From Spirochaetota bacterium (GTDB lineage Bacteria; Spirochaetota; UBA4802; UB4802): a DNA stretch of 53,153 nucleotides. Location: positions 1 to 53,153 of the forward strand of contig JAOAIH010000013.1 of assembly GCA_026414805.1 (NCBI GenBank), read 5' to 3'. The notes under the pieces were generated by a model. That model saw only the letters and a list, made by a program, of their open reading frames with translations. It was not told the origin of the DNA and did not search any database. Below, piece by piece: positions 38,363 to 41,886 of the stretch. Both the position numbers and the translations under genes were made by a program. Position 1 is the first letter of the stretch. The number at the start of each line of letters is the position of its first letter.

Positions 38363-38393
38363 TTGACTTTTTCTTATAAAGATATTTTATTAT
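38363..38393 (+). promoter_or_regulatory. Promoter of the structured RNA
   Basis: TTGACT (38363-38368) and TATTAT (38388-38393) with a 19-base spacer. The predicted start is at about 38400, exactly where the folded region begins. Confidence 0.45.
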
Positions 38394-38399
38394 ATAACG

Positions 38400-38564
38400 A
38401 AGAGTAAGTTTTAGGTTATTTACAACTCTAAATTCTTACTATTCTAGCCGCAAGGAATCTTGCGGAAAGTCAGTTTGGTACTAGATGTACCACAAGTAAG
38501 GGTAAAGGTTATCCAGAAAAGAAAGAGGGTGAAATTCCTTCAAATTTCATCCTCTTTCTTTTTT
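38400..38564 (+). ncRNA. Predicted structured RNA with strong terminator (sRNA or yggU leader)
   Basis: About 165 bases fold into successive hairpins: AGTAAG/CTTACT (38403-38408, 38435-38440) with an inner stem; CCGCAAG/CTTGCGG (38448-38454, 38459-38465) with loop GAAT; TGGTAC/GTACCA (38476-38481, 38487-38492); GGGTAA/TTATCC (38500-38505, 38509-38514). It ends in a 20-bp terminator stem (38517-38536 with 38543-38562, one G-U) followed by T's. No protein is likely here: the open frame that spans it lacks a Shine-Dalgarno and reads low-complexity. It fits no RNA family I know. Since yggU starts only 30 bases later, it is either an independent sRNA or an attenuator leader for yggU. Confidence 0.7.
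38517..38564 (+). terminator. Long intrinsic terminator of the structured RNA
   Basis: The arm AAAAGAAAGAGGGTGAAATT is complementary over 20 bases, with one G-U, to the 3' arm starting AATTTCATCC; loop of six bases, then T's to 38564. It is the strongest terminator in the window. Confidence 0.85.
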
Positions 38565-38594: not shown

Positions 38595-38870
38595 ATGGAA
38601 GAATATTTTATTTCTGTTAAGGTTATACCAAAATCATCAAAAAACAGTGTACAGTTTGAAGATGGTATTTTACGAGTGCACCTGAATGCACCACCTGTTG
38701 ATGGAAAAGCAAATAAAGCACTAATACAGCTATTAGCCCATGTGCTTGGAGTTCCAAAATCCTCTGTAGAAATAATACGTGGTGAAAAAGGCAGGAATAA
38801 ACAGATTAAAATTAAAGGCTTAAATGATGTTGCTTTGAAACAAAAACTTGATGATTATAATAGCAAATAA
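38595..38870 (+). CDS. yggU: DUF167/YggU family protein
   Basis: The protein is 91 residues from ATG 38595. The family core is clear: ISVKVIPKSSKNSVQ, LRVHLNAPPVDGKANKALI and VEIIRGEKGRNKQIKI. The upstream in-frame extension to 38460 is the structured RNA and is not protein. The role of the family is unknown. The terminator just upstream suggests that its transcription may depend on read-through. Confidence 0.9.
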   Translation: MEEYFISVKVIPKSSKNSVQFEDGILRVHLNAPPVDGKANKALIQLLAHVLGVPKSSVEIIRGEKGRNKQIKIKGLNDVALKQKLDDYNSK

Positions 38871-39383: not shown

Positions 39384-40205
39384 ATGCAATTTAAAACATT
39401 GATAACAGACGATGCAACTATCACAATTTTTGATGAAAGCTATAACGAAGCAATGCATTCGCTTTCTGGTGCCTATCAAGAAGCTGTCTTTATGCATGTT
39501 ATTCCTTCAAAGGTATTAGAGAAACACGGTCAAGTACATGTGCTTGATATAGGGTTTGGCCTGGGCTACAATGTGCTTGCGTTATGTTATGAAGCCAAAA
39601 AACAAAATCGTGATGTTTTCTATTCAATCACCTCATTAGAAAAGAATAAATATATGGTAGAAGCAATGGAATGCGTACATTTCAATGATGATAGAGATAA
39701 AGTATATGAACTGTTGAAGCATTCAGCGCGTGGCAATAAAATCATTACTGATTATTTTAGTCATAGTGTACTGTATGGGGATGCCCGACAGTTACTATCG
39801 CTTTTGCCTGAAAACAGTATTGATGCTGTCTTTCACGATCCCTTTTCCCCTTACAAGAATCCTGAGTTGTGGAGTGTAGATTTTTTTAAAAAGCTTTTTG
39901 ATGTATGCAAGGATGAGTGCATCGTTACAACATATTCAGCAGCAGTACATGTGAGGGTAGCAATGAAAAAGGGAGGTTTTATTGTTGGGAAGGGTCCTCA
40001 GGTGGGCAGAAAAAAAGAAGGGACTGTGGCAACCAAAAGAAATAATGCCGTTACTCCTCTTGGTGAAGAATATTTTGCATTGTTGAAAAATGATCCCAAG
40101 GCCATACCCTTTACTGATCCTGGTTTATGCACTACAACAGAAGAAATACGAGAGCGTCGTAGACTAAAAATGCTACAAGTTAAAAGAGGTCTTCAAGCTC
40201 CTTGA
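39384..40205 (+). CDS. MnmC-type (DUF752) SAM methyltransferase
   Basis: The protein is 273 residues, a stand-alone methyltransferase. TIFDESYNEAMHSLSGAYQEA and HVLDIGFGLGYNVLAL (SAM loop) are close to the methyltransferase half of MnmC. HDPFSPYKNPELWSVDFFKKL matches the substrate motif. In E. coli this half methylates the wobble uridine side chain (nm5U to mnm5U) of certain tRNAs. The FAD half is missing, as in MnmD-type proteins. Its last 26 bases overlap the convergent gene on the other strand. Confidence 0.8.
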   Translation: MQFKTLITDDATITIFDESYNEAMHSLSGAYQEAVFMHVIPSKVLEKHGQVHVLDIGFGLGYNVLALCYEAKKQNRDVFYSITSLEKNKYMVEAMECVHFNDDRDKVYELLKHSARGNKIITDYFSHSVLYGDARQLLSLLPENSIDAVFHDPFSPYKNPELWSVDFFKKLFDVCKDECIVTTYSAAVHVRVAMKKGGFIVGKGPQVGRKKEGTVATKRNNAVTPLGEEYFALLKNDPKAIPFTDPGLCTTTEEIRERRRLKMLQVKRGLQAP

Positions 40206-41886
40206 TAACTGATGAGCCGTTTTGTTTCTTTTCTTCCTGCAGTGTACTATGAGCATCTTTTTTTTGAGAACCAATGCCTAGTGGCGTTTCGCCTTCTTTG
40301 AACTCAATATCTCCCGAAAGATCACCTTCGGAAAGTCGGTATGATAATGCACTTGCGTAAAAGTATGCCAGGTGGATTGCCTCATACACTTTTTTATTTT
40401 GGAGAATGTGCACTGATTCAACATTGATGTCAAATTCAAGAAAATCCTGCGGATTTTCAATTATTTTATTTTCCTCATCCATATCGTGAATGAGGATATC
40501 TAGTTGGGTAGCAATCTTATCCATGATAGCTTTTGTTGTCATTCGCATGTTTTTTGATTCAACTTTTTTCTTTTTTTCCAGCTGTGTGAGGCGCTTTGTG
40601 TATTCAATATACTGTGCATTGTTCAGTGGCTTTTCAGCGCGTATCCGCTCATAGGTTTCAAGGACATGCATGTATTCTTCAAAGCTTTCGGTTACCTTAC
40701 GTAATTCATTGTAGCAATCAGTGAGCCTGTTTTTATAATCTATTTTGCCTGCATCAGTGAATTGAATATTATATTTGATTTTGTTTGTGGTGAGTATAAT
40801 GGAAAATTCATCATCAAACTTTTTAAAGAGGGCATACGTAATCAAGGCCTTGTCTGCTGGGTTTACTTGAACATACGAATCTTTTGGGAATAATGCTACT
40901 ATATCGTTGGTGCTCAAATTCATTAGCGAAAGCCCTTTGAGAATATGTTGGGGAATTTGAGGTTGTTCTTCTTGCTCCTTGGGGATTTGTTCTTCTGCCT
41001 TTTCAGCAGGCTTTGATGCTTTGCGTTTGCCAGGCAAATCGCTGTCACTTATTTGTAAGATAGTCCGTATGTAAGGGCTTGTAATATCAATATAGACATT
41101 GTAGTAGTGACAAAATATACTATGGAGCCTTGGCAGAAATTTATAAAAAGTAATATACAGGCTGTTACGAATGTATTTTCTTTTTTCATAGTGTGTAGAT
41201 TTTTGCTTTTCTAACGATGCCTGTATTTCCAGCGCATTGTTGTAAGCCAGTTCAATTAATTCAATGTAGGGATAAAGGATATAGAGGCTTTTATACATGG
41301 ACATAAGGTGGTTTTTGAGTTTTTGCATGCTCACCATACTGGTTGACTGGTACAGAGCTTCGATTTCATTAAAACGTGTCCTATCAAAGATGTTTGAAAT
41401 CATTACAATAAGTTCATAATAAAGGGGATTAATCTGGTCAAGTTTGGATATTATTTGCTTGCTGTGCTGCGGGTTGAATATGTGAAAATACTGTACCTGG
41501 AACTGAAGAAGGGCTGTTTTATAGCTATGGATAAGATTTTCCATAAATCGGGGTTTAAAGAATTCTGCAGATAAACCGGATACCCCAAGTAAAAACAACC
41601 GCACGCGGATAAACAGTTTGGATAGTTTTTTTTGCAGCCACGTTTCAAACATTTCATCTGATTGTATTTTTGGCTGCTTTGGTTCTTTTGGAACTGTTCT
41701 TTGTGGTGTTTGTGATACTGTTCTAACTGCAGGCTTTACAATTTTTGTTTGCCGTATGGATGGCTTTTCGCGCTCCTCAATAACTTTGCCACCCGCTTGA
41801 ACAAATTTTTCAAACATTTTTTTGCGGGTTTTTTCATCAAGTTCGTCAACTTTGATATTTTCTTTTGTTTTATCTATCTTTTTCAT
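40180..41886 (-). CDS. Large cytosolic protein of unknown function
   Basis: The protein is 568 residues with no signal peptide or transmembrane segment. The N-terminus is Lys/Pro/Thr-rich and probably disordered (to ~80). The rest is predicted helical, with a Glu/Pro/Gln linker near 300 (EEQIPKEQEEQPQIPQ) separating two halves. An ordered second half has LFPKDSYVQVNPADKALITY. No known domain is recognised, and it looks lineage-specific. AGAGAAG precedes the ATG. Convergent overlap with the methyltransferase gene is 26 bases. Confidence 0.75.
   Translation of the reverse strand: MKKIDKTKENIKVDELDEKTRKKMFEKFVQAGGKVIEEREKPSIRQTKIVKPAVRTVSQTPQRTVPKEPKQPKIQSDEMFETWLQKKLSKLFIRVRLFLLGVSGLSAEFFKPRFMENLIHSYKTALLQFQVQYFHIFNPQHSKQIISKLDQINPLYYELIVMISNIFDRTRFNEIEALYQSTSMVSMQKLKNHLMSMYKSLYILYPYIELIELAYNNALEIQASLEKQKSTHYEKRKYIRNSLYITFYKFLPRLHSIFCHYYNVYIDITSPYIRTILQISDSDLPGKRKASKPAEKAEEQIPKEQEEQPQIPQHILKGLSLMNLSTNDIVALFPKDSYVQVNPADKALITYALFKKFDDEFSIILTTNKIKYNIQFTDAGKIDYKNRLTDCYNELRKVTESFEEYMHVLETYERIRAEKPLNNAQYIEYTKRLTQLEKKKKVESKNMRMTTKAIMDKIATQLDILIHDMDEENKIIENPQDFLEFDINVESVHILQNKKVYEAIHLAYFYASALSYRLSEGDLSGDIEFKEGETPLGIGSQKKDAHSTLQEEKKQNGSSVIKELEDLF

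Follow-up and report, generated by a model that had tools for sequence, protein, structure and literature searches.

A predicted structured small RNA gene conserved across families of one order of uncultured Spirochaetota

In the window, which is the whole 53,153-nt stretch of DNA analysed here from a Spirochaetota bacterium, a run of hairpins ending in a strong terminator lies just 5' of yggU. Does this segment encode a free small RNA, does it act as a conditional leader of yggU, or is it a fold without function? A first-pass annotation, made from the letters alone, had left both of the first two readings standing. The features that bear on the question are the following:

38363–38393, + strand: sigma-70-like promoter-like site (TTGACT at 38363–38368, TATTAT at 38388–38393, 19-nt spacer)
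38400–38564, + strand: small RNA of about 165 nt with a folded body and a terminator, recognized by fold, homologues and covariation
38403–38440, + strand: hairpin P1, stem AGTAAG/CTTACT, apical loop with GG...ACA
38448–38465, + strand: hairpin P2, stem CCGCAAG/CTTGCGG
38477–38491, + strand: hairpin P3, GGTAC-N5-GTACC, present as a single copy within the window
38515–38564, + strand: intrinsic terminator, 22-bp stem (38515–38536 with 38543–38564), loop 38537–38542, U-rich 3' arm
38595–38870, + strand: yggU (DUF167; PF02594, E 3.5e-26), a neighbour outside the RNA

The segment 38400–38570 has a folding energy of -60.7 kcal/mol (z = -8.0), which none of 200 dinucleotide shuffles equalled, and about half of this energy is owed to the terminator alone. 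When the body was folded without the terminator, it still reached -33.6 kcal/mol against a shuffle mean of -21.1 (z = -3.6; 0 of 200 shuffles equal), so that the folded RNA proposed in the first-pass annotation holds even for the body on its own. The window has all four hairpins described there. Conservation is limited to P1, P2 and P3, since G002 and G005 do not have the fourth (GGGUAA/UUAUCC). The strong intrinsic terminator was likewise found, with a stem that folds as 22 bp rather than the 20 bp first given, and an equivalent terminator follows the RNA body in the homologues. A simple terminator scan of the window made no call for the 38515–38564 stem, because the U-run is paired inside it. 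The terminator is worth -26.6 kcal/mol versus -10.3 kcal/mol for the best rival duplex that the body can form with either terminator arm, and no antiterminator competing with it was found in the RNA body when pairing with the terminator arms was assessed.

At the other end, the TTGACT/TATTAT site stops just 5' of the folded part, where a promoter had been placed in the first reading. TTGAC occurs 33–38 nt ahead of the RNA in all 17 homologues, with a TA-rich -10 element in most of them, suggesting that the RNA has its own promoter-like site of the sigma-70 type; a consensus promoter scan of the window did not list this site. The absence of a plausible protein also stood, given that the window RNA contains no complete open reading frame of at least 10 codons and that no open reading frame is conserved. 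A TTG-started frame does span from 38460 into yggU; indels of 1 to 3 bases among the five genus members argue against its being coding. A peptide reading was considered and set aside: GTG-started short frames recur around P3 with R-Y motifs, but their frame shifts as the loop varies in length, and no GTG-started frame of this kind exists in the window copy.

The distribution of the RNA was followed in an order sample of 46 genomes and a phylum sample of 393 genomes. By DNA search, every one of the five genus genomes has it, with 80–92% identity between the window copy and the other four, and the search also reached the sister genus (G005) through the terminator. The G005 locus holds the entire RNA and carries the promoter-like site and hairpins seen in the window, though its stem sequences differ. 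A covariance model that left out the terminator and covered the body (R1) added G038, which belongs to another family (E 9e-5), and reading the sequence 3' of the STAS-domain gene across the order located the RNA in G025, G028, G035, G022, G013, G032, G030, G018, G026 and G009, and perhaps in G006. Weak R1 matches in G014, G015 and G042 were judged from their surrounding sequence to be chance. The second model (R2) was built with G025 and G035 left out; like R1, it came from a hand-made alignment that had been trimmed of insert letters and had N in place of gaps. R2 detected copies in 17 of the 46 order genomes, comprising six of six in family f1, eight of eight in f5, one in f4 and two in f7, and no significant copy in the remaining 29. 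G025 and G035, unseen by this model, were matched at E 2e-7 and 1e-4, respectively, at the places predicted by synteny; the fold test is weak for both, and their assignment is based on the model together with synteny. The G006 copy (family f2) is tentative: its place and hairpins led to its assignment by eye, the covariance model missed it, and its body folds no better than shuffles. Across the 393 genomes of the phylum sample, seven weak matches lay outside the order at E <= 0.01, versus about four expected by chance, and those inspected had no convincing structure. Database records carrying the STAS gene are mostly assemblies of uncultured Spirochaetes or Spirochaetota, several of which have the RNA right after it. 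These sequence comparisons place the RNA in the genus, its sister genus and three more families, all within a single order of uncultured Spirochaetota.

Covariance analysis of related genomes had been proposed in the first-pass annotation as a check, and its outcome favours the structure. Over 17 copies, 96.5% of the cells in the P1–P3 helices pair, and 9 of the 17 pairs have changes on both sides. The covariation score was 0.424; shuffles gave 0.145, and slid structures reached no more than 0.131. The count uses untrimmed sequences fitted to the model and leans towards the structure, and P2 of the window genus is misaligned in it; the slid control retains the relatedness of the sequences and shares the same lean towards the model. 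In P1, each of the six outer pairs covaries, with two-sided changes across families, and the GG and ACA of its apical loop are constant in nearly all copies. P2 is swapped for other complementary stems, namely UACCGUC/GACGGUA in G005, UUCACC/GGUGAA in G038 and GACACC/GGUGUC in G030. The P3 stem, GGUAC/GUACC, is present in 17 of 17 copies, with one compensatory G-C for A-U in G025. These compensatory changes support the three predicted hairpins P1, P2 and P3, and the comparison as a whole indicates that 38400–38564 is a separate RNA gene.

The neighbourhood bears on whether this predicted gene serves yggU. The gap from the RNA end to the yggU ATG at 38595 is 30 nt, exactly as first noted, and yggU is also the next gene in G005, G006, G030 and G018, as in the window genus. 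Elsewhere the following gene is convergent: a metallo-hydrolase in G038, G028, G022, G013, G032 and G026, a murB-like gene in G025 and a chemotaxis-receptor gene in G035 (all named by eye from the translation). In G010, G019 and G023, yggU follows the STAS gene with no RNA between them. On the upstream side, the RNA lies directly 3' of a small STAS-domain gene in G005 and G038, and in most families it shares the STAS strand and begins about 50–150 nt past the stop codon of that gene; its ancestral place is just 3' of STAS. In the window genus, the STAS gene is on a different contig from the RNA, which is conserved nonetheless. The place in the window genus is comparable with the others, in that a relative of the protein encoded at 40180–41886 follows yggU in G030.

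Two further observations concern these neighbours. The product of 40180–41886 (- strand) is a 568-aa protein that ends in VIKELEDLF and has no Pfam match; with a relative beside yggU in G030 (L107:2057-3085), it belongs to a conserved neighbourhood. At L039-L043, a SAM-I riboswitch-like leader, recognized by eye, lies 3' of the STAS gene in the window genus.

The comparison shows an independent, conserved, structured RNA gene, and from it we infer expression and mode of action. The reading that we favour, with somewhat better than even confidence, is a free, order-specific, trans-acting small RNA of the Hfq type. A transcript of about 165 nt would accumulate as free RNA, its U-rich 3' end would bind the Hfq encoded by these genomes, and it would act in trans to regulate other transcripts. 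Contact would be made through the apical loop of P1 (GG...UUUACA), where the unpaired bases vary least, and P2 and P3 would be elements of stability or protein recognition. Hfq (PF17209) is encoded in 26 of the 27 relatives examined; U-rich terminator tails are common and are no proof of Hfq use. In a target search limited to one long segment, the P1 loop, in the five genus genomes, the 14-nt complement occurred nowhere beyond the RNA except at one single-mismatch site in G003, indicating that pairing would be short or use another segment, or that the RNA binds a protein.

The last of these is a possibility that we take seriously, while giving it clearly less credence: a free RNA that, instead of pairing with mRNAs, binds and titrates a protein, as 6S or CsrB does, and whose recognized parts would be the stem of P3 and the GG...ACA bases in the P1 loop. 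The P3 stem sequence is almost invariant while the P1 and P2 stems change freely, spaced loop bases are invariant, and the long loop complement is absent from the genus, all of which would suit protein binding; however, the RNA has no repeated binding motif of the CsrB kind and lacks the long open duplex of 6S RNA, which is encoded elsewhere in the genome. A bolder version, in which an order-specific RNA recognizes a protein or uses an undescribed mode through the GG...ACA bases and the almost constant stem of P3, perhaps linked to STAS partner switching, strikes us as unlikely. Because in most families it starts shortly 3' of STAS in the same orientation, the RNA might instead be a 3'-UTR element that mainly ends and stabilizes the STAS mRNA, or a by-product of that mRNA; this is improbable, because every copy has the promoter-like site and the RNA is conserved in the window genus although its STAS gene is on another contig.

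The position upstream of yggU in the window genus and four other genomes is what recommends a conditional leader, attenuator or riboswitch, as considered in the first-pass annotation. The convergent next gene seen in eight genomes or more is incompatible with a yggU leader; with such variable neighbours and only weak pairing against the terminator, with no antiterminator, and with yggU following STAS without the RNA in three genomes, we reject this reading as very improbable and regard the link to yggU as positional, not regulatory. Least credible of all is a functionless chance fold around a strong terminator: the large share of the folding energy held by the terminator would allow it, but it is contradicted already by covariation, as well as by the z of -3.6 for the body and by order-wide conservation. 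The free small RNA, the other option offered at the outset, gains support from a covarying, order-wide RNA with a promoter-like site and a terminator.

A well-supported noncoding RNA family is thereby added for a group of uncultured spirochaetes. Its covariation-backed structure and fixed place after the STAS gene give a base for tests of expression and targets, and its apparent tie to yggU proves not to be regulatory.

How does this RNA compare with known systems? At curated thresholds, neither the window nor any of nine homologous loci matched an Rfam family, in agreement with the early impression that known RNA classes do not fit; at very loose thresholds, most matches to the window and homologues were of microRNA type and fell on the long terminator stem, the others being scattered and due to chance. 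The titles and abstracts of the literature consulted contained no description of the RNA. Cis-acting attenuator and riboswitch leaders resemble it as structured RNAs with a terminator just 5' of a gene, but here there is no alternative antiterminator and the downstream gene is variable and often convergent. The bacterial small SRP RNA (RF00169), also a small structured RNA, was considered since these genomes give no RF00169 match: none of 39 order genomes (the window genome and 38 relatives) had one, whereas control genomes did, and the order may have an SRP RNA that is divergent or of the large type. SRP RNA should be universal. The window RNA has no RF00169 match even at E 10, and most order genomes gave no copy of it in the search, which makes it an unlikely candidate for the missing SRP RNA. 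With 6S RNA (RF00013) it shares a similar length and the character of a free structured RNA; it differs in lacking the long open duplex and in having no match to the 6S covariance model, and the 6S RNA of this genome was located on another contig, contig 30 (C30). Closest are the Hfq-associated trans-acting small RNAs, which likewise combine a sigma-70-type promoter-like site, several hairpins and a U-rich intrinsic terminator, and are intergenic and independent of the flanking gene; the genome here encodes Hfq. The window RNA resembles no Rfam small RNA, and we infer the role of Hfq; it forms a new family within a known kind of RNA, so far seen in only one order of uncultured spirochaetes.
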